This document shows, one piece after another, positions 38,305 to 63,103 of a stretch of DNA of 64,000 nucleotides. Location of the stretch: NCBI RefSeq assembly GCF_006210265.1, contig NZ_VCNC01000004.1, positions 248,001-312,000 of the forward strand. Reading direction: 5' to 3'. The position numbers and the translations under genes were made by a program. Each line of letters opens with the position of its first letter. Position 1 is the first letter of the stretch. The DNA comes from Desulfovibrio sp. UCD-KL4C. Lineage in GTDB: Bacteria; Desulfobacterota; Desulfovibrionia; Desulfovibrionales; Desulfovibrionaceae. The notes under the pieces were generated by a model. The model was not told the DNA's origin and ran no database searches. It was given only the letters and a program-made list of their open reading frames with translations.

Positions 38305-38308
38305 ATGT

Positions 38309-39346: not shown

Positions 39347-39350
39347 ACTC

Positions 39351-41432
39351 TTAAAAACTCCAGTTTAGGGTTACACCGTATGTTGTGGGAGCACCGTCTT
39401 CGACCATAGTATCTCCTGTCCCACTGGCTACTTTTTTAACAGCATAGGCCGTGTCAAAAATATTTTCGGACCATATGGAAACCTCTAAATCACCAGTCTT
39501 ATATCCTAAGCGTAAGTTAACTGTTTGGTAAGCATCTCCTTTAAGATCGTTGGCTGCGTCAAAATACTGTTCGCCTGTACCCAAGAGATCGGCAACAGCA
39601 AAAAAGCCGCTTGCGTGATTGTATTGAACGTCAAAATTATATGTATATTCTGGAGCCCACGGCAGCTTTTTGCCACTATAGTCAACACTTTTTCCGCCTA
39701 CTATTGTACTCCAATCATCAATTTCGGAGTCTGCGTATCCAAAGCCGGCTATAAATTGTAGCTCTGGAATTGGTTTATAACGGCTTTCCACTTCAATTCC
39801 TTGAGTATGAGCTTCGGCAGCATTACTGAATTTCCATGCTCCAACTCCTCCGTCGGCTACAGATTCTCGAACCTGCTTGTCGGTAATATCAGTATAGAAA
39901 CCAGTAAGGTTGAAGGTTAATATATTATTAAACCAGTTAGTTTTGATACCAGCTTCGTAGTTAAGTGTATGTTCTGCGTCGTAAGCAAAACTGTCAGCGT
40001 CTGTGGCTGAGTAAAAGTTGAAACCTCCAGCTAAAAATCCTGTAGATACTGTGGTGTAAGCTGTGACATGGGAGTTAAAATCATAGGCTACAGATCCCAT
40101 GGGTAGAAACTCTGTATCATCAACGGATTCTTTATAAGAAGTAGCACCTGTATTTGGGGTGTAAGTCTGTTCTCCTGTGTTATAGGTCGTATCCAGCCGC
40201 GTACCACCAGTGAGGCGTAGGCCATTTATTATTTCGTAAGTTGCCTGTCCAAAAAGTGCGTATTCTGTTCCTTCGCTATTACCGAGCCGCGTGGAACTTA
40301 AAGCTGGCTTTACGTTGGTGAAGTTAATTCCGGCATCAATATTTTCGTAGCTTCCGTAAACCCCAACTAACCAACTCAGGTCGCTTTTGCCCTTAGAGGC
40401 AAGACGTATTTCTTGGTTCCAACTATCCGTGTCCATATTTAGATCCGAATATGAAATCTCCTTGGCTGTCCTATCACTGTCTAAATGGTGTTCTCGGTCG
40501 AACGTGCGATGACTGGTGATGGAGGTTAATTCCATGTTTGACCATGAACGTTTGATTTTCGCAGACTGTCCGATTTCTTCTTCCGTTGCTTTATCACTTT
40601 CGTTACTGGTTACCTTGTACCGGTCAGTTGCACTCGGTCCTTCCATATATCGCAGAGCACTTATACCAAGGTCGCGCATTGCTCCATCAAGATTAAATGA
40701 AATGTCCCAGTCATCAGTCGGGGTCCAGCGTATGGTACCGCGTCCGTTAAAGGTTTTTTTCCCATTTACATCGTCGTCATTTGTTAAAATGTTTGTGTTG
40801 TAACCTCTGGTTGTTAAACCTTGCATAGAGATGCCGTAGTAAAGTTCATCTTCAGAAATTGGGCCGCTGGCACTGATCCCTAGACGAGCTGTGTAATAGT
40901 TACCTAACTCCAACATAACTTTCTTATGTTTCTCATTATCAGGTTGCTTAAGAACTACATTGATAACTCCTGATTCACTGTTTCTTCCATACAATGTGGC
41001 CTGCGGACCACGTAGGATCTCAATTCGGTCAACGTCAAATAGATCTTGATCGCTCATGTATCCTATAGGGTATGGCACATCATCTACATAAAGCCCCATA
41101 GGACTGAATAGAGACGTATCAATAGTGGAGATTCCCCGGCATACAATTGATCCTCCAGAGCTGGTGTTTTTTATATAAACGTTTGGAGCAAACCGTGTTA
41201 GATCATCAAGCGTATCTATTCCCCGTGTTTCTATGAACATATCGTCCATTACTGAAATGTTACCTGGAAAATCTTTTATTGTACCCTCACGTTTGGAGGC
41301 AGAAACAGTAAAAGTTTCCATTGTTAATGTTTTTTGCTTGTCATCAGGAGAAGGCTCGTCAGCCGCTAATGCGGGATACGAAATAAGGAAGCTGAATGTG
41401 ACTGCAAGGATAAAAAATTTAATTTGTTTCAT
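39351..41432 (-). CDS. TonB-dependent outer-membrane receptor
   Basis: 693-residue receptor: signal peptide (MKQIKFFILAVTFSFLISYP..ALA), a TonB box-like ETFTVSASKR, plug domain (FPGNISVMDDMFIETRGIDTL...ILRGPQATLYGRNSESGVINVV) and a 22-strand barrel ending in aromatic TYGVTLNWSF. It imports a ligand across the outer membrane using proton-motive force, feeding the ABC importer encoded downstream. The plug resembles siderophore/FecA-type and also PepSY-like receptors. The ligand cannot be told. A Fur-like dyad lies about 50 bp upstream of the start. Confidence 0.93.
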   Translation of the reverse strand: MKQIKFFILAVTFSFLISYPALAADEPSPDDKQKTLTMETFTVSASKREGTIKDFPGNISVMDDMFIETRGIDTLDDLTRFAPNVYIKNTSSGGSIVCRGISTIDTSLFSPMGLYVDDVPYPIGYMSDQDLFDVDRIEILRGPQATLYGRNSESGVINVVLKQPDNEKHKKVMLELGNYYTARLGISASGPISEDELYYGISMQGLTTRGYNTNILTNDDDVNGKKTFNGRGTIRWTPTDDWDISFNLDGAMRDLGISALRYMEGPSATDRYKVTSNESDKATEEEIGQSAKIKRSWSNMELTSITSHRTFDREHHLDSDRTAKEISYSDLNMDTDSWNQEIRLASKGKSDLSWLVGVYGSYENIDAGINFTNVKPALSSTRLGNSEGTEYALFGQATYEIINGLRLTGGTRLDTTYNTGEQTYTPNTGATSYKESVDDTEFLPMGSVAYDFNSHVTAYTTVSTGFLAGGFNFYSATDADSFAYDAEHTLNYEAGIKTNWFNNILTFNLTGFYTDITDKQVRESVADGGVGAWKFSNAAEAHTQGIEVESRYKPIPELQFIAGFGYADSEIDDWSTIVGGKSVDYSGKKLPWAPEYTYNFDVQYNHASGFFAVADLLGTGEQYFDAANDLKGDAYQTVNLRLGYKTGDLEVSIWSENIFDTAYAVKKVASGTGDTMVEDGAPTTYGVTLNWSF

Positions 41433-41469
41433 TGTGTTCGACCCCTTGAATATCAGTTATTTATTTGAA

Positions 41470-41486
41470 ATTGATAGTCATGGTCA
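41470..41486. promoter_or_regulatory. Weak Fur-like dyad upstream of the TonB receptor
   Basis: TTGATAGTCATGGTCAA, an imperfect palindrome with outer arms TTGA/TCAA, 38 bp before the receptor start. It resembles a degenerate Fur box. Confidence 0.3.
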
Positions 41487-41553
41487 ATACACTCGTAGAA
41501 TGGATAGGACTAATCTTGTCTGGGCTAAAATTGACGGTAAAAGGACTTTTTGC

Positions 41554-42582
41554 TTAGGGAGCTAGCAAAAGACGCTGTCTGGTTAAGAACTCTTTGGGCA
41601 AAATGCCAAAACGTTTTTTGAATGCTTGACTGAAATGACTTAAGCTTAGGTATCCCACTGTGTAAGCAACTTCAGTCACGTTATTATTTCCCTGTTGTAA
41701 AAGATCATGCGCTTTTTGCATTCTGTATTCTCTGAAGTAACCGAAAACAGAAGTGTCGTAGACTTGGCGAAAACCGTTCTTTAATTTCTTTTCATTAATA
41801 CCAATATGATTTGCAAGTTCATGTATGCTTGGCGGGTTTTCCAAATCGCTAACTAAGATTTTGCCGGCAGTGCGAATGCGTTCAACCTCTTCCGTGCTTA
41901 AAGGATGCATTCTAGGGCATTTGCTGGTTTCTGATCTTATATAATCCTGAAGTTGTATAGCTAGAAGGTCCATAACTCTTCCTTCTACAAACAATTTCCG
42001 TACTCCGCCCGTATGCTGGCATTCTAAAATTTGAGTCAGCAGATGGAGCTTGGTTGGATTACAAGTTCCAAACCAATGCATAGGATTATTTTTGCAACCT
42101 TCAAGAGTCTTTTGAAAGGTTTTAGGTAGTATGTCCATGTTGTCCATAAAATAGTCACGAAGAAATTTAGGTGAAACAATTATACCTAAGACACAAGAGG
42201 ACTCATCGTTAGAACGTTCTATAATTCCGCATGTTTTTGGAAGATAGAAGATCCCGTTTGATCCTGTTTGCATCTCGTCGCTTTGATTACGCAACGTTCC
42301 GCCGGAGAAGGAGCATCTGTTTTTACCTGAATAGGTGAACCCGAACTGTATAGGGGCATCATCTCTGTCAAAGGGGACTTTTAGAACCGATTGGGTTGTT
42401 GTTCTGGAGATGGTCAGCGTAAGACCTGGTCGCAGTGAAATGTTTTTGAAATATTTAGATCCCAAAATTCCACTTTTTGCTGAGAATTGAAGTGGAGTGC
42501 ATTGTTGGGATGACTCGTTCTGGGTGATATCTGATTTCACAGGAACATCTCCAAAGATTATAGTATTAGTCTTCTTACGCAT
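41554..42582 (-). CDS. AraC-family regulator (PchR-like)
   Basis: 342 residues. A ligand-binding N-terminal part with no clear cupin, then the double HTH of AraC proteins (about 235-335: SIHELANHIGINEKKLKNGFRQVY and NVTEVAYTVGYLSLSHFSQAFKKRFGILPKEF). Such regulators, encoded next to TonB receptors, activate uptake genes when the siderophore or its iron form enters the cell. It lies just upstream of the receptor on the same strand. A Fur-box-like sequence precedes it. Confidence 0.9.
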   Translation of the reverse strand: MRKKTNTIIFGDVPVKSDITQNESSQQCTPLQFSAKSGILGSKYFKNISLRPGLTLTISRTTTQSVLKVPFDRDDAPIQFGFTYSGKNRCSFSGGTLRNQSDEMQTGSNGIFYLPKTCGIIERSNDESSCVLGIIVSPKFLRDYFMDNMDILPKTFQKTLEGCKNNPMHWFGTCNPTKLHLLTQILECQHTGGVRKLFVEGRVMDLLAIQLQDYIRSETSKCPRMHPLSTEEVERIRTAGKILVSDLENPPSIHELANHIGINEKKLKNGFRQVYDTSVFGYFREYRMQKAHDLLQQGNNNVTEVAYTVGYLSLSHFSQAFKKRFGILPKEFLTRQRLLLAP

Positions 42583-46404: not shown

Positions 46405-47121
46405 TTATTCTTTGTTTTCGACGAGTAATCCTGCGGCTTGGTCACGGCGCAGATGCAACCTCAAACCTTCTTTGCTGCGGATGATTATCCGCTGCCCGTT
46501 CTCCATGCATATTTCTTTTGCAGGTTGAACAGATTCAAGAGTGATGATTGAACCGGGTTTGATTCCTGTTCCGCTTATGGTTTGAACTGCTCTTGGTCCT
46601 CCAAGAATCTCTTTTACTTTAAATGGACGTCCTTTGCCGCAAGTGGCGAGCTGACATAATTCTTCGTCGCATTCTCCCCATATTTTTGCGGCCATACCTT
46701 CAGTCAGGCTGCATTGCTTCCCGTCTATAACTGCTTTATATTCCATAGGAGGCAGGCAGCGGATAAGTTCAATGTCATCACCTTCGCTTAGTCCCAATAT
46801 TTTTAAACTTTTTTCAAGGTGTGAACCGGAAGTTAATCCTTCAATATGCCCTTTTTCTCCGGGATTCATTTCAAATACAGGTGTTATATGCCCGTCATCA
46901 TGATGGGTTATAACTTTTGAAGCCATGCCTGCGGCCAAGAGTACTTCGCCACTCGGGCCTTTGACTCTGACCGGGTGAAGAGCTGAATCTTCCGATAGAA
47001 TCTCCAGTTCACTTCCTATATGCAACCCCATGTGTTGTAGGCTGTTTTTGAGATTTTCATTAACAATTGCTCGGAGTATAAGAGGGGTTTCAATTAAGGC
47101 TTTGTCTAGTGGGGTGGTCAT
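46405..47121 (-). CDS. Triple FeoA-domain protein
   Basis: 238 residues made of three consecutive FeoA/SH3-like domains (about 10-75, 85-150 and 160-235; each with an MGLHIGSELEI- or TGIKPGSIITLE-like beta core). FeoA is normally an 80-residue partner of the FeoB ferrous-iron transporter. No feoB is present. It overlaps the P-type ATPase gene by one base, so it is probably a cytoplasmic regulatory partner of that pump in iron handling. It is last in the seven-gene minus-strand operon. A triple array is uncommon. Confidence 0.85.
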   Translation of the reverse strand: MTTPLDKALIETPLILRAIVNENLKNSLQHMGLHIGSELEILSEDSALHPVRVKGPSGEVLLAAGMASKVITHHDDGHITPVFEMNPGEKGHIEGLTSGSHLEKSLKILGLSEGDDIELIRCLPPMEYKAVIDGKQCSLTEGMAAKIWGECDEELCQLATCGKGRPFKVKEILGGPRAVQTISGTGIKPGSIITLESVQPAKEICMENGQRIIIRSKEGLRLHLRRDQAAGLLVENKE

Positions 47122-49250
47122 TACACATTCTCCTTTGCAATTTTCGGTAAAATCGATTTGCAGGACGTCGGGGATGTTTTGAATGCAGCGTATCCTAAGA
47201 TGCCGACTGTGCTTAAGTTGTGGGTCATGGCGGCTGCAAGGGTAGAGATCTTGCCCATTCCTGCAAGTACAAGGGTTGCGGTATTAATTGCTACTGCCGA
47301 CCATAGGCAGGAGGTTAATGTTTCCCGGTTGTTGCAAGCAATGTGACGGGCTTCCACAAGAGTTCGTAAATCTTCATTTAGCATAATAACTTGTGCAGAT
47401 TCTCGGGCCAAATCTGCTCCAGAAGGCATGCAGATACCCACATCAGCACATATCAGTGCCGGGGTGTCATTCACACCGTCTCCAGCAAATCCGACTTTTG
47501 CACCATCTTTTTTAAGATTTTCAATAATGGCGGCCTTATCTTCTGGTTTTAGTTCCCAGTGCACGGCGTCTACGGGGGAAAGTTGGCTTACGAGGGCTAG
47601 AGCTGCTTCGCGGTGGTCTCCAGTAAGTATTTCAATGCGTTTTATACCAGCGCTTTTAAAGGCTTCTAAAGCTTCAAGGGCTTCGGGGCGTAGCTCGTCT
47701 CGCATTGCGATCAACCCTATAAGCTTTCCTTCCATAGCTACAAATACCAAATTATCTCCGGCATTACGTAGCTGGCGGGCTTTTTTCTCCATAAATGAAC
47801 AATCAATTTTTTCATCTTCTTCAATGAAATGCTGACTTCCGACCAAGACGCGTTTTCCGTCAACAAAAGCGGAAACTCCGTGAGCCACGATAAAGTCAAC
47901 TCCGCTTACTTTCGGCATATTAACTTTTTGACTTTTTGCTTCGGTCACCACAGCCTTGGCAACTGGATGAGCGTAATGTTCCTCTGCCCCAGCTGCAATC
48001 GAAAGGAGTTCTTCCTCTGTATAAAGAGGCATGGGAACTATTTCAGTAACCTTAAGCTCCCCTTTGGTCAGAGTTCCTGTTTTATCAAATACAAGGGTGT
48101 CGATAGCAGCAAGGTTATCTAGAGCCTGTCCGCCTTTAAAAAGTATTCCAGTTTGACTGGCTGTGAACATGGAGGTTCTTGTTGCAACCGGTGTGGAAAG
48201 TTTTATGGCACATGAGTAATCTACTGTTAAGACCGAAGCGGCTCTAGTGATGTCTCTGGTAAGAGCATAAACTCCAAGTCCTGCACCAAAAGTGAGTGGA
48301 ACGAGTTTGTCGGCAAGTTCAGCTGATTTAATTTGATTCTTAGATTGTGAACGCAGAGATGTTTCCAGAAAACGGTTAATGCGTGCCATTCCAGTTTCCG
48401 CACCGATTTTATCTGCTCTTATTTTAAGAGTTCCTTCTTCTATAACAGCTCCGGATAAGGTCTGGTCTCCGGGTTGTAAATGAACAGGTACAGATTCTCC
48501 CGTGATAGAGCTTTGATTGACTGAAGCATCTCCTTCAATAATTACGCCTTCAACGGGAATGAGTTCTCCGGCACCGCAAATTACAATATTTCCGGCCGTT
48601 AGGTCATTAAAATCTATTTCTATTTCACGCCCGTCACGTTCAATCCATATTTTTTCGACTTGTGGTTTTAACAGGGTTTTAAGCAAGTCTGTAGATTTTT
48701 GTTCAGATTGATCTTCTAGATATTCTCCTAGACTGAGCAAGGCTCCTACTGAGTTTGAAGTGAAATAGTCACCTCGCAGCAATGAAAGAGCTTTAACTGT
48801 TCCATCCAGGACCTCTATTTTGACCCCTCGGCTTAAAAGTGTTTCCAGCCCATTGGCTATGCCTGGGATTGCTAACATCCAGCTTGCTGCTGCCTGTACA
48901 GGTAAGGGGAGAAAAGGAGTGGCTGCCGCTGCTGCTGCTTTGGCACTAACCTCAATCAGGTCAACTCCATGCTCTTTTGTGTTGTTTGTAAAAAAAGCAT
49001 CATCAGGTATAGAATTAAGGTTTTCAATTATTGCAGTGCGAGTGGAGGGGGTTCCGTCATATTCAACTGTGATTGAAAAAGCTGGCCCATTAACCCGTGC
49101 AGACTCTACTCCATGAAGGGACTCAATTATTGCTTGCAGATAATTGAGGTCTAGAGCTGGAGTTAGAATTACCAGAGATTTTAACCTGATCCTATATGGC
49201 AGTTCATGGACAATTTCAAAACGCTTTTTTCTATGTGGAATTCCAATCAT
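47121..49250 (-). CDS. P1B-type metal ATPase with SCA motif, FezB-like candidate
   Basis: 709-residue P-type pump. N-terminal HELPYRIRLK and an HMA-like fold precede the membrane domain. The metal-site helix reads VDYSCAIKLSTPVA, with S-C-A where most P1B pumps have CPC or CPx. Also present: DKTGTLT (phosphorylated Asp), the SEHPHP-type AEEHYAHPVAKA, and GDGVNDTPAL. In ferrosome-forming bacteria a divergent P1B-6 ATPase (FezB) loads iron into the compartment, and this gene, flanked by FeoA and small membrane proteins, is a good candidate. Metal specificity is not proven by sequence. It could also be a Mn or Zn pump. Confidence 0.85.
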   Translation of the reverse strand: MIGIPHRKKRFEIVHELPYRIRLKSLVILTPALDLNYLQAIIESLHGVESARVNGPAFSITVEYDGTPSTRTAIIENLNSIPDDAFFTNNTKEHGVDLIEVSAKAAAAAATPFLPLPVQAAASWMLAIPGIANGLETLLSRGVKIEVLDGTVKALSLLRGDYFTSNSVGALLSLGEYLEDQSEQKSTDLLKTLLKPQVEKIWIERDGREIEIDFNDLTAGNIVICGAGELIPVEGVIIEGDASVNQSSITGESVPVHLQPGDQTLSGAVIEEGTLKIRADKIGAETGMARINRFLETSLRSQSKNQIKSAELADKLVPLTFGAGLGVYALTRDITRAASVLTVDYSCAIKLSTPVATRTSMFTASQTGILFKGGQALDNLAAIDTLVFDKTGTLTKGELKVTEIVPMPLYTEEELLSIAAGAEEHYAHPVAKAVVTEAKSQKVNMPKVSGVDFIVAHGVSAFVDGKRVLVGSQHFIEEDEKIDCSFMEKKARQLRNAGDNLVFVAMEGKLIGLIAMRDELRPEALEALEAFKSAGIKRIEILTGDHREAALALVSQLSPVDAVHWELKPEDKAAIIENLKKDGAKVGFAGDGVNDTPALICADVGICMPSGADLARESAQVIMLNEDLRTLVEARHIACNNRETLTSCLWSAVAINTATLVLAGMGKISTLAAAMTHNLSTVGILGYAAFKTSPTSCKSILPKIAKENV

Positions 49251-49504
49251 CTAGTTGTCCTTCTTGGTTTTTTGGATACAGCATAGTGCAACGCTGTAAA
49301 GCCGATAAAGGCAATAGAAGCCCAAAGGTGTAATGGTTTAGCTCCCTTGAATTTCAGTATTCCTGATGCTGCGGATGCACCAAGGGTTGCAACCATTCCT
49401 ATTTTGGCAACTGTCTTAGTCTTGCTTGGATTCAGAGGGCAATCCTTACATTGACGGAATATCTTTTTTTCAGTTTTCGCGGGCTGTTCTAAGAGGGTGT
49501 TCAT
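49247..49504 (-). CDS. Small two-span membrane protein
   Basis: 85 residues. N-terminal CKDCPLNP motif may bind metal. Two hydrophobic segments follow (VAKIGMVATLGASAASGILKF and WASIAFIGFTALHYAVS), ending in KKPRRTTR. It overlaps the ATPase start by 4 bp, so translation is coupled. I chose ATG 49504 over an upstream TTG. No named family. By position it belongs to the ferrosome-like gene set, where small membrane proteins are encoded beside the ATPase. Confidence 0.7.
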   Translation of the reverse strand: MNTLLEQPAKTEKKIFRQCKDCPLNPSKTKTVAKIGMVATLGASAASGILKFKGAKPLHLWASIAFIGFTALHYAVSKKPRRTTR

Positions 49505-49565
49505 AATATAAATCAATCCGGTTCAGTTCTGTCCTGAGCCGGATTGCCGTAATATGTTTAACTTA

Positions 49566-49877
49566 TTAAGACTGATCCACTTCAGCTTTGATATCTTGAA
49601 GTTTTTCTTTTGCTTCTTCAATTCCGCCCTGAAGCGCTGCCCATAGTTTGACGGAACCGGAGACAACTGCTTTTTGAACCGTAGGGTTTGAGGCTACGAT
49701 TGCGACTGCTGCTCCTACGGCAAAGCCTTTCAAGTAGCGTGAATCTGTGACATTTACCCAGCTTTTAATAGGGGCCTGCACTGGCTGCACCTGTGTTGCA
49801 ACATCCACTTGCTGTTGGTCGTTAATAAGTCTGGGATCTTGATTGTAATATGTGTAGTCATAATTATTGTCAGTCAT
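49566..49877 (-). CDS. Small single-span protein with KGxxVGA segment and acidic helix
   Basis: 103 residues. A polar Gln/Asn/Tyr-rich N-terminus, one small-residue-rich span (YLKGFAVGAAVAIVASNP) and an amphipathic tail (LWAALQGGIEEAKEKLQDIK). The KG-x2-VGA span recurs in the next gene ([17 protein letters not shown]), which marks them as paralogous modules. GxxxG-like packing suggests oligomerisation in or on a membrane. Start at 49877, where AAGGAG is well spaced. The alternative ATG at 49883 overlaps the upstream stop. Probably a ferrosome-associated structural protein, by position. Confidence 0.7.
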   Translation of the reverse strand: MTDNNYDYTYYNQDPRLINDQQQVDVATQVQPVQAPIKSWVNVTDSRYLKGFAVGAAVAIVASNPTVQKAVVSGSVKLWAALQGGIEEAKEKLQDIKAEVDQS

Positions 49878-49882
49878 GTTCA

Positions 49883-50575
49883 TTACTCCTTATCTGCTTG
49901 TGCGTCTTTTGCCGCTTGGGCTATTTTGTACTCTTCTTCTGCTTTAAGATCTTCCATTCTTTCAGCTTCTTCTGCCGAAACCTCTTCAGAGTTTCCTGAT
50001 GAAAAAATTGATCGAACGGTTTTGCTGGTGCAAGCAAAAGTAATACCTGCTCCAACGAGTAGTCCTTTCCAAAAGCTATCATCGATGCCATTGAAAAAAC
50101 TTAGAAAACTTGCAGGGTCGGCTTTCCCTTCTGTGGTGTCCTTTACTAAATCAACAAATTGTTTGATCTGATCTTCTTGTACATTTGTTGCCGCAGCCTG
50201 TGGTTGTTGCACCGGTTGCTGAATTGGTTGTTGAACAGGTTGTCCATATACTGGCTGACCATAAACCGGTTGTCCGTAGACTGGTTGTCCATACACTGGT
50301 TGACCGTATACAGGCTGACCATAGATTGGTTGTCCATATACTGGTTGCTGAGTCGGCTGTTGGACCATTTGCGGTGTAGGCTGCTGTATTGGCTGACTTG
50401 GCTGTACTGGACGTCCATAAATATCGGTTTGAATATATCCGGAGACTGGAGCTCCTTGATAAGGATCACCAGGAGTTGTGTATGAAAAATGAGGTTGTCC
50501 CATATCCGGACCCATGACCGGTTGCGAGGGGTTAGGCTGTTGCGGGACATCAGTTTTTTCGTGCTCGGTTGACAT
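49883..50575 (-). CDS. Low-complexity QPVYG-repeat protein with C-terminal membrane segment
   Basis: 230 residues. Residues 1-130 are Pro/Gln/Gly/Tyr-rich, with seven 5-residue [10 protein letters not shown] units coded by 15-bp tandem DNA repeats, then QQP repeats. The C-terminal part has a single span ([17 protein letters not shown]) homologous to the neighbour's, and a charged helix ([16 protein letters not shown]). The repeat region looks disordered and phase-separation or scaffold-prone. It ends where the 103-residue gene starts (stop overlaps an ATG). Possible organising protein of the iron compartment. No named family. Confidence 0.75.
50238..50342 (-). repeat. Seven tandem 15-bp repeats inside the QPVYG gene
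   Basis: Seven consecutive 15-bp units (plus strand form GGTTGTCCATATACT and variants), differing mostly at wobble positions, so selection keeps the peptide repeat. Copy number may vary between strains by slippage. Confidence 0.85.
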
Positions 50576-50598
50576 CTTTTTGCTCCTTTATTTTGTTT

Positions 50599-50916
50599 TT
50601 ATGCAGGATGGTTCATCAGTTTGCCGTATAGCTCACTGATGATTTGAACTTTTTTGTTTTTATCTACGCCGTTAATAAGTTCCTCGATTACCTCAGGAAA
50701 TATTTCTTCTGGATTATATTCGATAACCACTGAGCGAGCAGCCATGTTTACCCTTGCACTTGTGATTGCCGCAGGTAAATCTGAGTGCTCACGCATGGCT
50801 GAAAGGGCAGCAGGTTTAGTGAGGATAAGTGGACTGAATTTAACCCTGATGCGTCCGGGTACATGATGGGCGACATCTAGATATTTTTCCAAATCAACAA
50901 GTTTATGAAAGTTCAT
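50599..50916 (-). CDS. HMA-like small protein with HxxPGRIR motif
   Basis: 105 residues with an HMA/ferredoxin-like beta-alpha pattern (HHVPGRIRVKFSPL...SARVNMAARSVVIEYNPEEI). It lacks the CxxC metal site of copper chaperones. The motif H-x2-P-G-R-I-R also occurs at the N-terminus of the following ATPase (HSIPGRIRVR) and, altered, of the FezB-like ATPase (HELPYRIRLK). It overlaps the 753-residue ATPase gene by 14 bp, so it is likely a regulatory or docking partner of these pumps. Confidence 0.75.
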   Translation of the reverse strand: MNFHKLVDLEKYLDVAHHVPGRIRVKFSPLILTKPAALSAMREHSDLPAAITSARVNMAARSVVIEYNPEEIFPEVIEELINGVDKNKKVQIISELYGKLMNHPA

Positions 50917-53164
50917 TTATTTTACCTGATTTTAGTTCGAGAGGTTGCGGGGAATGGCTCAAAAGTCTTGAAGAATTGGCAATGACGCCCAGAGTGTGGA
51001 GTATATGCAGCATGCCAGCCATAACCGGTGTAAGAACTCCTGTGGCTCCCATTACTACACCCACAATATTAGATCCGGTTGCCAGCCAGAAGTTTTGATG
51101 GGCAATTTTTATAGTGTCCTGGCTGAGCTTTTGCACATAAACCAGACCGCTCAAATCATCATTGACAAGTGCAATGTCGGCCGCTTCAACAGCCACTTCC
51201 GCTCCTCCTGTTCCCATGGCAATACCTACATCAGCCTGTGCAAGGGCTAGCGCATCGTTGATGCCGTCTCCAACCATCATAACTTTTGTATTGATAGTTT
51301 GTAAGGATTTTACCAATTCAGCCTTTTCTTCAGGCATAGCCGAGGAGTGGATTTCCTTTATATCCAAAATCTGAGCAAGATGTGTTGCTGTTGCAGGTTC
51401 ATCTCCGGTGACCAGTACTGTTCTGTCTATTCCCCCGTGTTCAAGGGATTTGAGTACTGCGGAAGATTCCTTGCGCACGGTATTGGCAAAAGCCAGTAGT
51501 CCTATAGGAGCTTTATCTTTGATTACATATAAAACTGTGAGGCCTTTATTTTTAAGAGTGGAGACATTACGGCTGAGCAGACCTATACGAACATCAAATT
51601 GTTCAGTTAATTTTTTGTTGCCTACAAGAATTTCTGCTGGATTTCCTGTTTTGTCGCAAAGCTCAGCTCGCATCCCTTTGCCAAGAAAATATTCACAAAC
51701 GGTATGGGGAAGGGGAGATATTTCGTGCTTATCGGCTTCAGTCTTAATAGCTTGTGCCAGTGGATGGTGATTATGTGTTTCAACTGAGAACGCATAAGTT
51801 AGTATTTCAGATTCTTCGATTCCTTTTACTGCGTAAATGACTTCCAAGCTTGGTTCACTTTCAGTGAGAGTTCCGGTCTTGTCAAAACAAGCAATATCGC
51901 ACTGTCCTATTTCTTCAAGATAGCGTCCACCCTTAATAAGGATATTATGTCGCGCTGCAGTATTTATTGCGGCGCTGATAGGAGTAGAGGCTGAAAGAAC
52001 TGTTGCGCATGGGCACGCCATAACTAATAGTACAGTAAATGCTCGCCATGGATCAGTGGTAATGAGAAGGGTTCCGATAGTTGCGCCTAAACCTATTTTA
52101 ATTAGGCGAACGGAAAGTTTATCCGCAGTGGATTCAATTTCAGTTTTGTTTTCGAGGGAATCTTCCACTTTGTGTAGAATGCGGGAAAGGTAGGTCTTAT
52201 CGCCGACTTCTTCGGCCTTAATGTAGATAACTCCCTCGCGAACAAAAGTACCTGAAAAAACTTTGTCATCTTTTTTCTTATGAATAAAGTCGGCTCTTCC
52301 TGTAATCGGCGCTTCATTTATAAGTCCTTGTCCATCGACAATTATTCCATCAACACAAATTTTTTCACCCGTATGCAGAACAACAATATCGCCTTTTTGA
52401 AGATTGTTTATTTCTACTTCTATTTCAACTTCGTCTTTAAGTATGAAAGTGTGGTGGGTTGTGTTGTCTAAAATACCGGATATAGCTCTGCGGGAACGTT
52501 CGGTTATCCATGCGGTCAAAAAGTCTGCGCCCGCATTTATCCACATGATCTCAAAAGCTGTCAGGGCTTCACCAGCGACAACCGCAGCGATAATTCCTCC
52601 TGCAAGCATTCCTTCCAGTCCGAATTTTTTTTCACGAATTTTTTTTACAGCTTCCTTAACTAAGGGAACTGCTGCAAGAATGGTTATTGCTCCAAGAGGG
52701 CTGAAAAGGGTCTGGCTGATAGTGAGGCCAAGCAGAGATTCACTTACCAGTACAGCTCCGCCAATGGCTGAAATAAATGAAAAATAGCGTAGTGAGCTGC
52801 GAACTTGTGGGCATCCGCATTCCTTTGTATCTTTAATCGGGCAAAGTTCGGTTGTGTGTATGGAAATAATATCGTCAACAGCATTAGTCAGCATTTCAGG
52901 GGAAGCTATTTTTACATTGTAGTGGATGATTAGGCTGGCGCATTTTGTATTTGTTCTTGTCTGCTTAATGCCTTGAACTCGTTCAAGATTTTTTTCAAGA
53001 GTCGCGCAAAGTAAGTTATTTTTTTTTAGTTCAGGGATTCTAACTCTAATGCGTCCCGGTATTGAATGTTTGATATGAGCTTTTTGATGTTGCTTTTTCA
53101 CTTCAGCATCCTGTTTTGTATCTGTGATTTTGGTTATTCTGTTGATATTGAGATTGAATCTCAA
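50903..53164 (-). CDS. P1B-type metal ATPase with CPC motif
   Basis: 753-residue P-type pump. N-terminal KHSIPGRIRVRIPEL opens an HMA-like domain without CxxC, then a Cys cluster (CPIKDTKECGCP). The membrane metal site is MACPCATVLS (CPC), with DKTGTLT, HNHHPLAQA (HP motif) and GDGINDALAL. CPC pumps usually move Cu+, Zn2+ or related ions, but P1B-6-like members of ferrosome loci also cluster here. It is the first gene of the seven-gene operon. Two different P1B ATPases in one operon suggest that they act in series or on different metals. Confidence 0.85.
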   Translation of the reverse strand: MRFNLNINRITKITDTKQDAEVKKQHQKAHIKHSIPGRIRVRIPELKKNNLLCATLEKNLERVQGIKQTRTNTKCASLIIHYNVKIASPEMLTNAVDDIISIHTTELCPIKDTKECGCPQVRSSLRYFSFISAIGGAVLVSESLLGLTISQTLFSPLGAITILAAVPLVKEAVKKIREKKFGLEGMLAGGIIAAVVAGEALTAFEIMWINAGADFLTAWITERSRRAISGILDNTTHHTFILKDEVEIEVEINNLQKGDIVVLHTGEKICVDGIIVDGQGLINEAPITGRADFIHKKKDDKVFSGTFVREGVIYIKAEEVGDKTYLSRILHKVEDSLENKTEIESTADKLSVRLIKIGLGATIGTLLITTDPWRAFTVLLVMACPCATVLSASTPISAAINTAARHNILIKGGRYLEEIGQCDIACFDKTGTLTESEPSLEVIYAVKGIEESEILTYAFSVETHNHHPLAQAIKTEADKHEISPLPHTVCEYFLGKGMRAELCDKTGNPAEILVGNKKLTEQFDVRIGLLSRNVSTLKNKGLTVLYVIKDKAPIGLLAFANTVRKESSAVLKSLEHGGIDRTVLVTGDEPATATHLAQILDIKEIHSSAMPEEKAELVKSLQTINTKVMMVGDGINDALALAQADVGIAMGTGGAEVAVEAADIALVNDDLSGLVYVQKLSQDTIKIAHQNFWLATGSNIVGVVMGATGVLTPVMAGMLHILHTLGVIANSSRLLSHSPQPLELKSGKINELS

Positions 53165-53218
53165 AACTACAGGGAATAACTAACGATGCAAAATATCTTT
53201 GTCAATTAAAAATAATAT

Positions 53219-53235
53219 TGAATTATACTGATTCA
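53219..53235. promoter_or_regulatory. Fur-like dyad upstream of the ATPase operon
   Basis: TGAAT-N7-ATTCA palindrome in the 200-bp gap before the first ATPase gene, 55 bp from its start. A candidate operator for the nearby Fur protein. Low confidence because the region is AT-rich. Confidence 0.35.
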
Positions 53236-53364
53236 TTTTAATAGCATAAACTGACTTTATAGAAAAAAAGGTATAAATAATAAAAACTTATGGGAAATAA
53301 CGCCGCGCTGTATAAAACAGCGCGGAAGATGATATTTGTCAAAGGTAGGTAGATTACAGTTACA

Positions 53365-53709
53365 TTATTCATCAGTGCAACATTTCAGAGTAGTGTTGCT
53401 ACTAGAAGTGGAAGCTGAAGGAACTGTTTTATCCCATAAAATTTTTGCACTGGTTGCTACAATGGTAAACCCAAGAAGTCCGGCAAAGCCTCCAAGTCCT
53501 ATAATCCCAGTTACTGCGACTCCTGCAGCTGTTGCCAAACCTGTTCCTGCAGATTCAGTTGCCACGTTTTTTGCCAGTTCGCATTTTGTTATTTTTCCTT
53601 CTTTTACTGCAATTGTTCCACGTACTGCGGCAACAGTTCCACCTACCAAAGCGCCTGTTGCTGCGGCTGAAGCTGTAATAACAGGAAGAAGTCTAGTCGT
53701 AGTTGTCAT
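53365..53709 (-). CDS. Gly-zipper membrane protein of the ferrosome-like island
   Basis: 114 residues with two Ala/Gly-rich spans (LLPVITASAAATGALVGGTVAAV and GLATAAGVAVTGIIGLGGFAGLLGF), a polar linker (GKITKCELAKN) and a Cys-ended tail (KCCTDE). GxxxG-type repeats resemble those of magnetosome and other compartment membrane proteins. It is transcribed in the same direction as the ATPase operon but 200 bp ahead of it, and divergent from fur, with which it shares a control region. No named family. Confidence 0.7.
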   Translation of the reverse strand: MTTTTRLLPVITASAAATGALVGGTVAAVRGTIAVKEGKITKCELAKNVATESAGTGLATAAGVAVTGIIGLGGFAGLLGFTIVATSAKILWDKTVPSASTSSSNTTLKCCTDE

Positions 53710-53892
53710 AGTTAAATCTCCTTTATTGGTGACGCTTTCAGGGGCGTCAATTATGTGTCCGTCTAGTTCGGCTTATTTTTATTTGTATTTAGTATAAATG
53801 TATTTATTTTGAAAGCAATACGATTGATATTCATTTGCATTCTTCACAGCCCTAAGGTTTAGGGTGTATTGCTATTGACAATTGTTTTCATT

Positions 53893-53904
53893 TGAGAATA
53901 CTCA
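53893..53904. promoter_or_regulatory. TGAG-N4-CTCA operator-like dyad before fur
   Basis: TGAGAATACTCA, a perfect short palindrome 48 bp upstream of the Fur start, between the divergent membrane-protein and fur genes. Candidate autoregulatory site. Confidence 0.4.
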
Positions 53905-53952
53905 TCAAAGTCAATTTCGATTGTAAAAAATAATAAGGAACTGGAGAAGGTT

Positions 53953-54384
53953 GTGCTTAATCCTCAACATATTTTTTTAGACTACTTGTTAGAAAATAAA
54001 ATGGCAGTAACAGAGCAACGTAGAGTTGTGTTGGAAGTTTTTTTAGATGCAAATGAACACTGTTCCTGTGAGGAGCTGTATCTGGAAGTAATTAAGAAAG
54101 ATTCGACTATTAGCTCAGCAACTGTTTACAGGACTGTTAAGCTATTGGTTGAGAGCGGGGTTGCCGGGCAATTATGTTTTGGAGATGGAGTTTTACGATT
54201 AGAACCTCGTTTTAACAAGCCGCATCACGATCACCTTGTCTGCGTTAATTGTAGGAAAAAAATTGATGTTGTGGATGAGCGTATAGAAAAATTGCAGCAA
54301 TGTTTAGCCGAAAAATATGGATTTGTATTTAATAGGCACAAAATGATTTTATATGGGGTTTGTTCTGACTGCCGTAAAAAGTAG
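53953..54384 (+). CDS. Fur-family metalloregulator
   Basis: 143 residues with the Fur winged helix (TEQRRVVLEVFLDANEHCSCEELYLEV...ISSATVYRTVKLLVESG) and the C-terminal dimer domain. Zinc ligands CVNC and CSDC are present, as is the HHDH metal-sensing segment. Start is GTG at 53953 behind GGAG. It lies between divergent parts of the island, so it probably senses Fe(II) and controls them. PerR or Zur identity cannot be excluded from the sequence. Confidence 0.92.
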   Translation: MLNPQHIFLDYLLENKMAVTEQRRVVLEVFLDANEHCSCEELYLEVIKKDSTISSATVYRTVKLLVESGVAGQLCFGDGVLRLEPRFNKPHHDHLVCVNCRKKIDVVDERIEKLQQCLAEKYGFVFNRHKMILYGVCSDCRKK

Positions 54385-54471
54385 TTTGATGATGTATGTA
54401 ATTATCAATTGCAGGATTTGTAGAGTGTGAGTATGTTTATTATCATTTAATAAACATAAAGGAGAAAATGT

Positions 54472-54699
54472 ATGAGTTTAGGAAGATTTTTACTGGTTAC
54501 CAGTACTACGGCGTTTGTAGGTTATGCGGCTTATTCAGTTTATAAAGCCGGTGGGGTTCGTCCTGCTATTGCTAATGTTGTGAAAAGTTCAGTCAAAGCT
54601 GGTAATTGGGCTTCTAAAAAGTACTCTTGTGCCAAAAATGAAGTTACCAGAATGGTGGATGAAGCTAAGACTGAAATTGCTAGTGGAGGAGAGGTTTAA
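54472..54699 (+). CDS. Small membrane-associated protein downstream of fur
   Basis: 75 residues: one N-terminal hydrophobic segment (FLLVTSTTAFVGYAAYSVYKAGG) and an amphipathic, partly basic C-terminus (VVKSSVKAGNWASKKYSCAKNEVTRMVDEAKTE). Clear GGAG ribosome site. It follows fur by 87 bp on the same strand and ends with a terminator at 54873. YtxH-like in appearance. By position it is another small protein of the ferrosome-like island. Confidence 0.7.
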   Translation: MSLGRFLLVTSTTAFVGYAAYSVYKAGGVRPAIANVVKSSVKAGNWASKKYSCAKNEVTRMVDEAKTEIASGGEV

Positions 54700-56816: not shown

Positions 56817-58697
56817 TTAGCAATAGATGGTTATGCCAGTTTGGAACATCTTGTCATTATAGATGACCTTGATGTCGTATTTGCCGGAAAGACCATTCTT
56901 GCTGATATTCATTTTGAGCTGACGGTCATCCTTTTCCAGAAATGCACCGGAGCACATTGCTAGGTGGTGAACAGCAGCAGTGTTCAAGAAGTATCCGCGG
57001 GTTTCTTTTTCGCCTGCAAGGACAATCATTGCCAACGATCCGTGTTCGAATAAGCCGTGGAAAACAAGGCGGTCTTCATCTTCGTCGATAACTATCTCAC
57101 GTTCAGAACTCGGTAATTCGTCAACTTCTTCAACATCCGGGATGGTATCAAAAGTAGGGGTTACGTCCAGATTGCCCACCAGTTTGCCTTCGCCAAAAGT
57201 GAGATTTTCGCATGAGTGATACGGTGTTAATTTTTCAGCACGGTAGAAGTTGCCTTCCACTTCCAGTTCGTATAGGACCACGCCGTCTTTTTCTTCTACT
57301 GTGATCGAACGGCGTTCTGTGCCGGGTATCGTGGTATCGAGGAAGGCTCCAAGACCATCGGAGGCCCAACCATCAACAAAGCCCAATCCACCGGAATGAG
57401 TTAGGTAATGGCCCTCGTCGTAATATTCGACGTTGCAGATGTAAGGAGAGAAGAAATCCTGTCCACGTTCTTTTCCGTACTGCCATATCTGCTCGATTTC
57501 CATTTTGTCGGTATCGATGCGGTAGCGGACGCCACGGGAGAAATTATCCCTGTTTCTGATGTAGTTCTCTTTGGACTTGGCGCGGTACTGACCATTGTCA
57601 AAGCACATGATGTCACCGTCAGGGCAGACTACGCAGGCATGCTGCTCATACTGCCAGTCAAAGTTCTCAACATCACCAACTGGTTTGAAGAAATACTTGT
57701 CTACCATTTCCTGAGGCCAACCTTCAGGGTCGCCGATGATCCAGTTCAGGGTATTGGTATCGTAATCGATATTCACAACAGCATCCTGATGACGGCCGGA
57801 AAGAGTGATGGAGTTTGTCTTTTTATCGTACCATAGAGCATTGTTGTGGAACCAGTCGTGGGCATCCTGCGAACCTGAACCGGCCACATCCTGTGGCAGG
57901 AACTCTTTGAAATCCCAGGTGCGGAGCACTTCACCTGTCTCGCGGTCCAGTAGTGCTATCATATCTTCCACGGTGTCGGTGTGGAAATCCTGAGTCAGGG
58001 CTAGGATATTTCCGTCTTCCATTTCCCAGTGGTCATGATGATAGTTGCCGGGCATCCGGTACTCTTTGTATATTTTACCGAGCAGACTTAGTTCGAAGAG
58101 TCCGGTAGAGTTATAAGGCATACGGCAGAAACGGCTGGAGCCGGTCATGATATTGCCGTTTTCGAGACGTTTGATGTCAAACATTGTGTTGACGGTCAAC
58201 ATCCAACGTATTTCGCCCGCATAGTCGTATCCGGTGGGCAGGTTCTTGCCAGCCGGAGTCAAAAACATGATGTTATTGCCGAAGTAGTCAAGTGAAGTCT
58301 GGACGTTGAGACAACGGCAGACGGATGCAGGAAGTTCTTCGGACTGTACAAGGAAAGTTTTGCTTTCACCGTTAGATAGGGACACGGTAACCTTGGTCTC
58401 AATGCCTTCATACAGGCAGAGAACCGGGATAGAGTGGGAAGTGGTCGCCTTAAAGGTGTGCGTAATGTCCTCACGGCTGTTACGTTTGCCGTGTACGGTC
58501 AGTTCTGCTTCTACCTCGGTTTCGGTCTTGAACAGAATCAGTGCTGAAAGCGGGTTGATGAGATACGGATTGACAATAACGTGAGCATTTTCAAGGGAAG
58601 GCTTTTCTGTTTCGAAAGTTTCAAGAAAAGTTTTTTCAGCATTATTCTGTTGTGTGATCAGGTTATCTTCACAAGTGTAAACGACTTTGTTGCTCAT
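56817..58697 (-). CDS. Aryl-sulfate sulfotransferase-like protein 1 (leaderless)
   Basis: 626-residue beta-propeller sulfotransferase of the ASST family, which moves sulfate from one phenol to another through a sulfo-histidine intermediate. Conserved His-rich sites are visible: NYHHDHWEM, DAHDWFHNNA, SGRHQDAVVNID, QYEQHACV and THSGG. Characterised ASSTs are periplasmic and have a signal peptide; this one starts MSNKVVYTCEDN without one, so a cytoplasmic location is likely. It has a paralogue at 61181. Thioredoxin and thioredoxin reductase genes precede it on the same strand. A sulfated aromatic or thiol substrate is possible. Confidence 0.85.
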   Translation of the reverse strand: MSNKVVYTCEDNLITQQNNAEKTFLETFETEKPSLENAHVIVNPYLINPLSALILFKTETEVEAELTVHGKRNSREDITHTFKATTSHSIPVLCLYEGIETKVTVSLSNGESKTFLVQSEELPASVCRCLNVQTSLDYFGNNIMFLTPAGKNLPTGYDYAGEIRWMLTVNTMFDIKRLENGNIMTGSSRFCRMPYNSTGLFELSLLGKIYKEYRMPGNYHHDHWEMEDGNILALTQDFHTDTVEDMIALLDRETGEVLRTWDFKEFLPQDVAGSGSQDAHDWFHNNALWYDKKTNSITLSGRHQDAVVNIDYDTNTLNWIIGDPEGWPQEMVDKYFFKPVGDVENFDWQYEQHACVVCPDGDIMCFDNGQYRAKSKENYIRNRDNFSRGVRYRIDTDKMEIEQIWQYGKERGQDFFSPYICNVEYYDEGHYLTHSGGLGFVDGWASDGLGAFLDTTIPGTERRSITVEEKDGVVLYELEVEGNFYRAEKLTPYHSCENLTFGEGKLVGNLDVTPTFDTIPDVEEVDELPSSEREIVIDEDEDRLVFHGLFEHGSLAMIVLAGEKETRGYFLNTAAVHHLAMCSGAFLEKDDRQLKMNISKNGLSGKYDIKVIYNDKMFQTGITIYC

Positions 58698-61180: not shown

Positions 61181-63073
61181 TTAGTCAACAGTGATGCAAA
61201 TTCCTGTGTGGTATTTTTTTTCGTTGATGATGACTTTGACAGCAAAGATGCCGGAGAATCCGAGTTTGCTGACGTTGAGAGAAATCTGACGGTCATCTGC
61301 TTCCATAAATGAACCAACACACATGGCCAGTGCTGGGCGGGCCGTGGTGGATATATAGTAGTTGTGTGACTCTTGCTCATTTTCAAGGCAAAGCATGAGC
61401 AGACATCCTTTTTCAAACCTTCCAGAGAAGGTAAACCTATCTTCTTCTTCGACTATCTTTATTTTATACCATTCGGAAGGAGGCTGGCTTGTTTCTTCTG
61501 TTTCTGGAACTGTGTCGAATTCAGGGGTGACGTCGAGATATCCCAGAACCTTACCTTTTCCTAGAGGCATGTTGTCGCCGTCGTGGTAAAGTGAAAGCTT
61601 TTCTGCCCGGTAGAACTGGGATGGCAAGTGCATTTCAAACATGACCACGTCGTTCTTTACTTCGACTGTGACACTTTGCTGTTTGTGGCTGGGATCTTCA
61701 GGGTCAAGGAAAGCTGGTAAGAGTTTTTCAGATGCCATGCCATCGACATATCCGATACCTCCGGAGTGAACCATATAGTGGTCATTAGCATAGCATTCCA
61801 CGTTGCAAATATACGGGGAGTAGAAATGCTGACCGCGTTCTTTGCCGAACTGCCAAATCTGTTCAATTTCCATCTTATCAGTATTGATGCGGTAGCGGAC
61901 ACCACGCGAGAAGTTGTCTTTATTTTTTCTGTAATTCTCTTTTTTCTTTGAGCGCCAATGACCGTTGTCAAAGCACATGACATCCCCGTCGGGGGTTATC
62001 AGGCAAGAGTGCTGTTCGTATTGCCAGTCGAAGTTGTTCAGATCCCCGACAGGGGTGAAGAAGTACTTCTCAACCAACTCTTCAGGCCAGCCCTCAGGGT
62101 CACCCAGCATCCAGTTTAATTCCCCGGTTTCATAATCGATATTGATAATTATGTCCTGATGGCGTCCGGACAAGGTTAAGGAGTTTGTTGGCTTGTCGTA
62201 CCATACTGCGTTGCAGTGAAACCAGTCATGGGAACTCCAACTGCCGGACTTTCCAACATCCATGGGGTAAAGCCCTTGAATATCCCAAGTCTTAAGAATG
62301 TCTCCGGTCTCGCGGTCTACCAAGACCAACATGTCTTCCACTGTCTCGCGATGAAAGTCTTGTGTCAGAATCAGTAGATTACCGTCTTTCATTTCGAATT
62401 GATCATGATGATAGTTGCCGGGCAACCTATATTCTTTGACGATCTTACCTACCATAGTAACTTCACAGAGGCCCGTGGTGTGGTAGGGAGGGCGAGAATA
62501 TCTGTAGGATCCCATCAACAGATTGCCGTTAGCGGCTCGTTTCATGTCAAAGACAAAGTTTTCAGCCATGGCCCAGCGGCAATCCCCGTTGTAGTCATAT
62601 CCTGCGGGCAGGGATTTGCCTGCGGCAGAGACGAACATCATCATGCCTTCCATGTATTCTGGAGTGGTGATAATATTCTCGACTTCCTGAGTTAATTCCG
62701 GGAGCCCGCCAGTCGTGGCGATGACTGAGCTCTTTTCTCCGGTGGAAAGTTCAATGTCTACTATATTATCGCATTCTTTATAGAGGCCGAGTATTGGCAG
62801 CACATGCTCGGTCGCAGGGGGGAAGGTTTTAGTAATATTGGCGACCGATGTAACTCCACGTACTGTAATGGTCACGCCTACAGGTTTTTCTGTGCGGAAA
62901 AGAAGCACCGCTGTAAGGGGATTGATGAGGTATGGATTTACCACCAGAAGGGGGTTGTCATACTTGCATTCCTCTTCAGCGAATTGTTTCATAAAAGCTG
63001 CTTCGCTTTCATTTTGCTGAGTCACCAGATGAGATATACGTTCGTAACTAACTTTAGGTAGATTATAGTTCAT
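61181..63073 (-). CDS. Aryl-sulfate sulfotransferase-like protein 2 (leaderless)
   Basis: 630-residue paralogue of the protein at 56817, sharing NYHHDQFEM, SSHDWFHCNAVWYDK, SGRHQDIIINID, QYEQHSCLI and VHSGG. No signal peptide is visible (MNYNLPKVSYERI). Start at 63073, since GGAG is well placed there and not before the upstream ATG at 63085. It is 30 bp downstream of a DASS transporter gene on the same strand. Two cytoplasmic ASST copies, each with a DASS transporter, suggest related but distinct substrates. Confidence 0.85.
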   Translation of the reverse strand: MNYNLPKVSYERISHLVTQQNESEAAFMKQFAEEECKYDNPLLVVNPYLINPLTAVLLFRTEKPVGVTITVRGVTSVANITKTFPPATEHVLPILGLYKECDNIVDIELSTGEKSSVIATTGGLPELTQEVENIITTPEYMEGMMMFVSAAGKSLPAGYDYNGDCRWAMAENFVFDMKRAANGNLLMGSYRYSRPPYHTTGLCEVTMVGKIVKEYRLPGNYHHDQFEMKDGNLLILTQDFHRETVEDMLVLVDRETGDILKTWDIQGLYPMDVGKSGSWSSHDWFHCNAVWYDKPTNSLTLSGRHQDIIINIDYETGELNWMLGDPEGWPEELVEKYFFTPVGDLNNFDWQYEQHSCLITPDGDVMCFDNGHWRSKKKENYRKNKDNFSRGVRYRINTDKMEIEQIWQFGKERGQHFYSPYICNVECYANDHYMVHSGGIGYVDGMASEKLLPAFLDPEDPSHKQQSVTVEVKNDVVMFEMHLPSQFYRAEKLSLYHDGDNMPLGKGKVLGYLDVTPEFDTVPETEETSQPPSEWYKIKIVEEEDRFTFSGRFEKGCLLMLCLENEQESHNYYISTTARPALAMCVGSFMEADDRQISLNVSKLGFSGIFAVKVIINEKKYHTGICITVD

Positions 63074-63103
63074 TATATTCTCCATATTTATGATTAGAGT
63101 TCT

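Follow-up and report, generated by a model that had tools for sequence, protein, structure and literature searches.

A 64,000-nucleotide stretch of the 3.93-Mb genome of Desulfovibrio sp. UCD-KL4C (contig NZ_VCNC01000004.1, positions 248,001 to 312,000; hereafter the window) carries, at positions 46405-54699, an island that is probably an expanded type of the ferrosome (fez) cluster of Desulfovibrionaceae, with proposed vesicle and mineral roles. Within it we found a gene for a protein of 114 amino acids (aa) that sequence comparison supports well as a homologue of MamC, the magnetosome protein that controls crystal size in magnetotactic bacteria. An earlier note on the same DNA had described a ferrosome-like island with two P1B ATPases, and every gene it named is a genuine open frame at its position.

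The minus strand holds seven genes at 46405-53164 and one more small gene upstream. Read downward from 53164, the operon encodes a P1B ATPase with a CPC motif and an HMA_2 domain (50903-53164, start codon uncertain); a stand-alone HMA_2 protein of 105 aa with the sequence HHVPGRIR (50599-50916; Pfam HMA_2 E 5e-7, 30.2 bits against a cut-off of 30); a proline/tyrosine/glutamine-rich protein of 230 aa with QPVYG repeats and one hydrophobic segment, KGLLVGA (49883-50575); a DUF5132/YtxH-like small membrane protein of 105 aa with KGFAVGA (49566-49883; DUF5132 E 1.2e-4, below cut-off); a DUF4405-type, FezC-like small membrane protein of 89 aa with an H-x13-H spacing (49247-49516; DUF4405 E 0.0026, below cut-off); a FezB-type P1B ATPase of 709 aa with the transmembrane motif VDYSCAIKL and an N-terminal HMA_2-like part below the cut-off (47121-49250); and a 238-aa protein in which three stretches match FeoA (46405-47121; Pfam FeoA E 8.2e-21). 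Both ATPases contain the Pfam E1-E2 ATPase and hydrolase domains. The small minus-strand gene at 53365-53709 encodes the MamC-like protein (NCBIfam MamC E 1.3e-10, 41.4 bits). On the plus strand, a Fur-family regulator of 143 aa (53953-54384; Pfam FUR E 1.5e-29) is followed by a small membrane protein of 75 aa (54472-54699), probably FezA-like. The MamC-like, FezC-like and FezA-like identities were missing from the earlier note's account of the genes. The window and 40 other stretches, every one chosen by a MamC match, form a set of 41 regions, in which gene frames and their starts were called mechanically. The core gene set is complete in 38 of them, the remaining three being truncated by contig ends; the CPC ATPase and the FeoA-type gene each occur in 40, and the DUF5132-like gene has an equivalent position in other fez loci.

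The placement of the two ATPases is central to the ferrosome assignment. A tree was built from 214 ATPase frames, a few of them duplicated and covering part of the P1B subfamilies. All 129 frames with a D[YF]SCA motif fall in one clade of 145 (support 1.0), including the FezB of locus L220, whose genome we take to be that of Desulfovibrio magneticus RS-1 (presumed D. magneticus below). The SCA ATPase of the window lies in this clade, and no CPC frame does; its VDYSCAIKL-type motif is presumably the one that goes by the name P1B-6. The CPC ATPase of the window falls elsewhere, in a clade made up of 49 CPC frames (support 1.0), separate from the 17 other CPC frames in this partial sampling of P1B subfamilies, which include pumps of the window's own genome and of presumed D. 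magneticus. In this tree, the two ATPases do not both sit in ordinary Cu/Zn clades, the placement that the earlier note had held to speak against its own proposal. These results bear on a rival explanation, namely a metal-resistance or efflux operon that forms no organelle and uses its two P1B ATPases to expel Zn, Cd, Cu or excess Fe(II) across the cell membrane, the FeoA and HMA_2 proteins serving as metal handlers. Both ATPases do exceed the cut-offs of TIGR01525 (heavy-metal) and TIGR01512 (cadmium-family), the CPC motif of the second is usual in Cu/Zn pumps, and FezB-type pumps could export iron too. However, the SCA ATPase groups with FezB, apart from the CPC pumps, and is accompanied in several phyla by FezC-like, MamC-like and proline-rich membrane proteins; we consider efflux an unlikely explanation of the island.

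Two small proteins extend the resemblance of this probable fez cluster to the three-gene operon (fezA, fezB, fezC) of D. magneticus RS-1. In presumed D. magneticus, the operon encodes proteins of 86, 743 and 146 aa, which are of FezA, FezB and FezC type in that order. The 89-aa family of the window matches FezC of the D. magneticus genus (hhalign, 96.9) and retains H-x13-H in all of its 39 frames, offering two candidate haem histidines; from its sequence, the 89-aa protein is identified as a FezC homologue with putative haem binding. A higher hhalign value of 99.0, obtained with a mixed set, was dropped in favor of that from D. magneticus-genus members alone. FezC and DUF4405 proteins are described as haem B binders in passages of PMC10979944, which present FezC as a DUF4405-like cytochrome. 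The FezC of presumed D. magneticus differs in having an N-terminal HMA_2 part, which the window protein lacks. For the 75-aa protein, the family HMM finds the FezA of presumed D. magneticus (86 aa) at 2.2e-6, and the family, short as the protein is, aligns with FezA-type proteins (hhalign, 93.3; maximum of 50 shuffles, 2.8). The DUF5132-like family shows a weaker relation to FezA-type proteins (29.8, clean sets). The 75-aa gene lies across fur, outside the operon.

Against the D. magneticus operon, the window adds the CPC ATPase, the HMA_2, QPVYG, DUF5132-like and MamC-like proteins, the triple FeoA and fur; the earlier note was correct in calling the island richer than the three-gene loci. 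The fez locus of Clostridioides difficile, which we take to be compact, can be likened to the window by description only. That description, in passages of PMC12574912, is of a FezA membrane protein and a FezB transporter under Fur repression. What the earlier note's comparison left out is that six-gene fez sets are already known, such as RPA2333-2338 of Rhodopseudomonas palustris (passages of PMC12016538). Operons of this R. palustris/Shewanella type share with the window the order HMA_2, proline-rich KGxxVGA protein, YtxH-like protein, FezB. One of them, from an uncultured Shewanella (L131), has a MamC-like gene in the same slot as the window, whereas in the Rhodopseudomonas locus L150 that slot is filled only by a very distant protein; in L131 and L138, no CPC ATPase or triple FeoA was seen, unlike in the window. 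The SCA ATPase in the FezB clade, the presence of FezC- and FezA-like genes and a gene order matching fez operons of other phyla bear out the ferrosome-like character first proposed for the island, and the comparison with the D. magneticus locus that had been suggested as a check recovers the FezB, FezC and FezA-like relations.

The short sequences that the earlier note had reported as shared among the proteins are all present: HELPYRIR, HHVPGRIR and HSIPGRIR at the N-termini, KGLLVGA and KGFAVGA in the membrane spans. Among the mechanically called frames of the loci, 20 of 50 of SCA type, 31 of 40 for CPC ATPases and 39 of 53 for small HMA2 proteins carry HxxPxRxR. Because this motif stands at the start of the HMA_2 domain, it is best explained by common descent of that domain and need not be a separate assembly signal. 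KGxxVGA, in contrast, may reflect common targeting. It belongs to a membrane segment that two families, QPVYG and DUF5132-like, have in common (hhalign, 96.6 over 30 columns with clean sets) and is present in KG-type form in 35 of 38 members of the former and 13 of 38 of the latter; an hhalign value of 100 for the same pair was discarded, the two sets having had members in common. The 15-base repeat behind QPVYG is genuine, with 7.3 copies at 50238-50347. Equivalents of the repeat protein occur in 38 regions, where the N-terminal content of P, Q, Y, G, H and M has a median of 52% in the mechanically called frames.

The MamC relationship was assessed with the NCBIfam model NF038051, an equivalog with a curated cut-off of 100 bits, and with profiles of the family itself. 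At E up to 0.001, NF038051 finds matches in 45 of 297 genomes of the class and in none of 14 control genomes; over the cut-off, the class count is 0 of 297. In an alignment of Desulfobacterota, Deferribacteraceae and gammaproteobacterial members (A2), 19 of 19 sequences match MamC at E up to 0.01 (best 1.8e-21), and MamC is the only family common to more than one member. Conversely, an HMM built solely from Desulfovibrionia fez proteins matches 17 of 17 above-cut-off MamC loci (7e-25 to 7e-18). Here, "magnetosome MamC" denotes sequences passing the NCBI cut-off, only two of which come from named genomes. Against these, the family profile aligns at 99.5% (hhalign; E 4.3e-23) over 108 columns, compared with a maximum of 3.8 for 100 column shuffles, 1.0 for the reversed profile and at most 3.12 for the FezC, DUF5132, QPVYG and 75-aa families; the gammaproteobacterial group aligns at 97.2 (100 shuffles, maximum 2.43). 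The resemblance extends to collinearity, two hydrophobic stretches, a polar loop and loop glutamates. Hydropathy correlation with magnetosome MamC is 0.98 between groups, 0.93 for the window protein and 0.84 for the gammaproteobacterial group.

Within the loop, we mapped three residues to alignment columns, positions 66, 70 and 74, the mapping being our own. All 48 Desulfovibrionia fez proteins and all 17 magnetosome proteins have Glu at position 74. Glu66 and Asp70, which passages of PMC6584501 name for magnetite contact in MamC, are kept less evenly: Glu66 in 33 of the 48 compared with 14 of the 17, and Asp70 in 18 of the 48 compared with 15 of the 17. An alternative is that the likeness reflects convergence of Gly/Ala-rich helical hairpins, in which case the cluster would still be fez but without a tie to magnetosomes. 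The protein is indeed Gly/Ala-rich and short, scores below the curated cut-off, and shares 27-32% identity with magnetosome MamC over 88 columns. Convergence would nonetheless have to account for a profile score far above every control, whether one of the 100 shuffles, the reversed profile or one of four other small membrane families, for a collinear match that includes the loop, for the invariant loop glutamate, and for sub-cut-off MamC matches lying almost all in fez loci. We regard it as very improbable, and homology of the 114-aa protein to MamC as well supported by these comparisons. A search of the PDB with the MamC-like protein returned a single match (E 0.039) to an unrelated viral glycoprotein, which was taken as chance.

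Across genomes, the MamC relative and FezB occur together. FezB was scored as present in a class genome when its best match had E<1e-165, a threshold set after seeing the gap between 4.5e-169 and 2.2e-136. On this basis, 40 of the 297 class genomes have both genes, 2 FezB only, 5 MamC only and 250 neither (Fisher p 1.6e-41, relatedness ignored). The two FezB-only genomes have the gene on contigs below 4.3 kb. Among the five MamC-only genomes, L044 and L255 are cut contigs with fez genes and L252 has a more divergent FezB adjoining; no fez cluster is seen within the 19.5 kb of G134, and the 3.4-kb contig of G274 has no further matches. In a test set, MamC matches came from 13 of 395 genomes belonging to the phylum and from 10 of 197 belonging to a gammaproteobacterial order, with 17 new regions. 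A FezB-type ATPase adjoins the MamC-like gene in 14 of the 17 (12 by motif, one DYACA; plus DYSCV and DFGCA variants), and another is cut by the contig and has flanking fez-type small genes. In locus L289 (G635:C288:1-19000), genes for a CPC ATPase and for HMA_2, proline-rich, MamC-like and FezC-like proteins form a fez-like cluster.

The association was also approached from FezB, using the best 80 of at least 587 confirmed relatives from a DYSCA[LI]KL scan of named genomes, one per species; four of these loci (L080, L081, L082 and L087) correspond to class loci and enter both counts. In 25 of the 80, a MamC-like gene is present at E<1e-3, the nearest lying within 1.1 kb of FezB in 24 of the 25. 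These include a Deferribacteraceae genome, several Deltaproteobacteria, Shewanella, Ferrimonas, Photobacterium and Kluyvera. Forty-nine FezB-picked loci without a clear MamC-like gene are mostly from alpha- and betaproteobacteria, with Aeromonas and Ectothiorhodospira; in 45 of them, another small membrane protein occupies the MamC slot and aligns with the gammaproteobacterial group (hhalign, 88.9; 100 shuffles, maximum 8.9). Among Rhodospirillales, 16 of 20 matched genomes are over the MamC cut-off; three of the other four matches lie in fez loci, and the fourth, a fragment (G387), comes from a 4.7-kb contig that has no such locus. Ten of 15 named genomes searched whole have a MamC match, two of them over the cut-off. 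From these sequence-based counts, a MamC relative as a regular part of the expanded fez cluster is well supported. No MamC relative of fez loci is mentioned in the passages of the ferrosome and MamC literature consulted, a scope that does not extend to the founding fez papers, Grant 2022 and Pi 2023, so earlier notice is possible.

FezB-type ATPases extend beyond these loci. A tblastn search of plasmids with FezB found matches in 4387 records; among the 40 matches listed, the first twelve, from Azospirillum, Arcobacter, Cereibacter and Vibrio, have 36-42% identity (E 2e-144 to 1e-128) and are separated by a clear gap in score from the thirteenth (8e-86). The three annotated plasmid regions among the five examined are small operons with HMA2 or YtxH-type genes. 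An iterated MamC HMM matching all five plasmid fez loci (L075-L079) was set aside for the Desulfovibrionia-only HMM, with which L076 and L078 alone match at E<1e-3. Weaker FezB-query matches (best E 2e-136 to 1e-110) occur in 121 of the 297 class genomes beyond the 42 strong ones; in the five such regions inspected (L220-L222, L227 and L228), the FezB-type ATPase adjoins a small FezA-type gene, and in G005 and G016 a weaker match accompanies the strong one. An additional ATPase, marked by a D[YF]ACA-type motif, is found in 12 of the 41 fez regions (L057 10644-12728, L059, L061-L065 and others), in several followed by a second MamC-like gene, a 75-aa-type gene and HMA_2 genes on the opposite strand. 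Paramagnetospirillum caucaseum SO-1 (L099) and Magnetospirillum sp. SS-4 (L107) each hold a FezB-type operon and an above-cut-off MamC in one genome.

Turning to regulation, the divergent promoter region contains three Fur-box-like sites at 53825-53907 on the plus strand (up to 3 mismatches). They are 3 of 14 such matches in the window, where 5.6 are expected per 64 kb, and the 19-base Fur consensus has no match in the divergent region. Upstream of the operon, the stretches TTGACAAA and TTGAnATTCAATnTCAAT are conserved in congeners, and the operator-like sequence TTGAGATTCAATCTCAAT (53147-53164, minus strand) follows the conserved TTGACAAA; it is the sole exact match in the window to a pattern drawn from that same congener alignment. 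Since the TTG start of the CPC ATPase at 53164 overlaps this conserved sequence, that start is doubtful. The palindrome TTGANAYTCAA, considered as a general Fur box, was rejected, having one match in the window against 0.5 expected and thus being no rarer than chance; a longer form has five sites in the genome, four of them elsewhere and not at iron genes, to judge from their neighbors. A terminator-like hairpin of 9 pairs, 7 of them GC, lies at 53303-53325 on the minus strand, in the gap between the mamC-like gene and the operon, and hairpin-type sites are not enriched (9 compared with 8.3 in shuffles). The Fur protein of the island is one of four Fur-family matches in the genome. Fur control of the cluster is plausible.

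Several observations weigh against an expanded fez cluster in which MamC is a regular member. The window protein stays far under the equivalog cut-off, lies in a fez cluster rather than a magnetosome island, and has Glu, Asn and Glu at positions 66, 70 and 74, keeping, of the two magnetite-tied residues, only Glu66. The 27 fez proteins of other groups have Glu66 in 12 cases and Asp70 in 6, and at position 74 Glu in 9 and Asp in 8. Flanking genes are less constant than the core, with the 75-aa type in 27 and the Fur type in 19 of the 41 regions, and the Fur-box evidence is weak overall. At E up to 0.05, the Pfam DUF4405 model does not match the FezC of presumed D. magneticus, whereas HMA_2 does. 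One new MamC-like match (L286) lies outside any fez locus, by itself on a 7.5-kb contig, and in the fez-like cluster L289, FezB was not found alongside. No MamC-like gene at E<1e-3 is present in 55 of the 80 FezB-picked loci, among them the fez operons of the magnetotactic L099 and L107, and the protein found in the MamC slot of the alpha- and betaproteobacterial loci has no match to the magnetosome MamC profile, making it a very distant relative at best. Presumed D. magneticus has no MamC match in its genome (G120) and none in its fez operon; therefore, the MamC-like protein is not needed for ferrosomes as such. It is an added part of the expanded type, perhaps one that elsewhere is no longer recognizable.

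How the ferrosome and magnetosome proteins are related in time was approached with a tree of 92 MamC sequences over 112 columns, which left out five sequences (three duplicates and two weak matches) and L080-L082, repeats of class loci. Above-cut-off MamC forms one clade (100), which joins the fez group of Desulfobacterota and Deferribacteraceae (84). The tree was rooted by choice on the gammaproteobacterial group and has no true outgroup, so it cannot order fez and magnetosome MamC. We suggest, tentatively, that MamC was originally a ferrosome membrane protein in contact with the growing iron mineral and limiting it, regular in the expanded fez operons of Desulfobacterota, Deferribacteraceae and gammaproteobacterial lineages, and was co-opted for magnetite by magnetotactic bacteria. 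A different account, which we also hold to be possible rather than probable, makes the MamC-like protein a membrane organizer of ferrosomes, serving packing or sorting, with mineral contact a later magnetosome invention. The scarcity of Asp70 among Desulfovibrionia fez proteins, and the Asn in the window, would fit such an organizer; the loop is still polar, however, with its position-74 glutamate kept throughout those proteins, and the hydropathy profiles of the fez and magnetosome proteins agree.

As an expanded fez cluster, the island would work as follows. FezB, the SCA ATPase, would pump Fe(II) from the cytosol into membrane vesicles, and FezC, a DUF4405-type cytochrome, would adjust the redox state of iron at the vesicle membrane. 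The HMA_2 domains of both ATPases and the small HMA_2 protein may serve metal hand-over or the cohesion of a complex. The FezA-like, DUF5132-like and QPVYG proteins, with one membrane helix each, may shape or cluster the vesicles, and the CPC ATPase could pump metal across that membrane as well, or act as the export partner. The MamC-like protein would sit in the vesicle membrane with its acidic loop facing the iron mineral, limiting or seeding the growth of the granules that we infer for this organism, a hypothetical role modeled on that of MamC with magnetite.

Other genes in the window may touch on metal supply. A few kb from the cluster, at 35967-42582, lie an ABC transporter set and methyltransferase-, TonB-dependent-receptor- and regulator-like genes (by eye), perhaps another unit for the uptake of metals or siderophores. 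To one side of the cluster lie an arylsulfotransferase gene at 56817-58697 (Pfam) and a gene at 61181-63085 that is similar by eye.

The mamGFDC genes were called specific to magnetotactic bacteria in 2010 (passages of PMC2818848). MamC relatives adjoining FezB in several phyla provide a testable link between two lipid-bounded bacterial iron organelles, and those found outside magnetosome clusters form a set for finding the residues that turn iron contact into magnetite control. If MamC is of ferrosome origin, ferrosomes and magnetosomes would share a module for biomineral control beyond the plan of a pump in a vesicle. For the family that includes the first ferrosome model organism, the island represents a broad form of fez cluster containing two P1B ATPases, in which the MamC-like protein is a candidate limiter of ferrosome granule growth.

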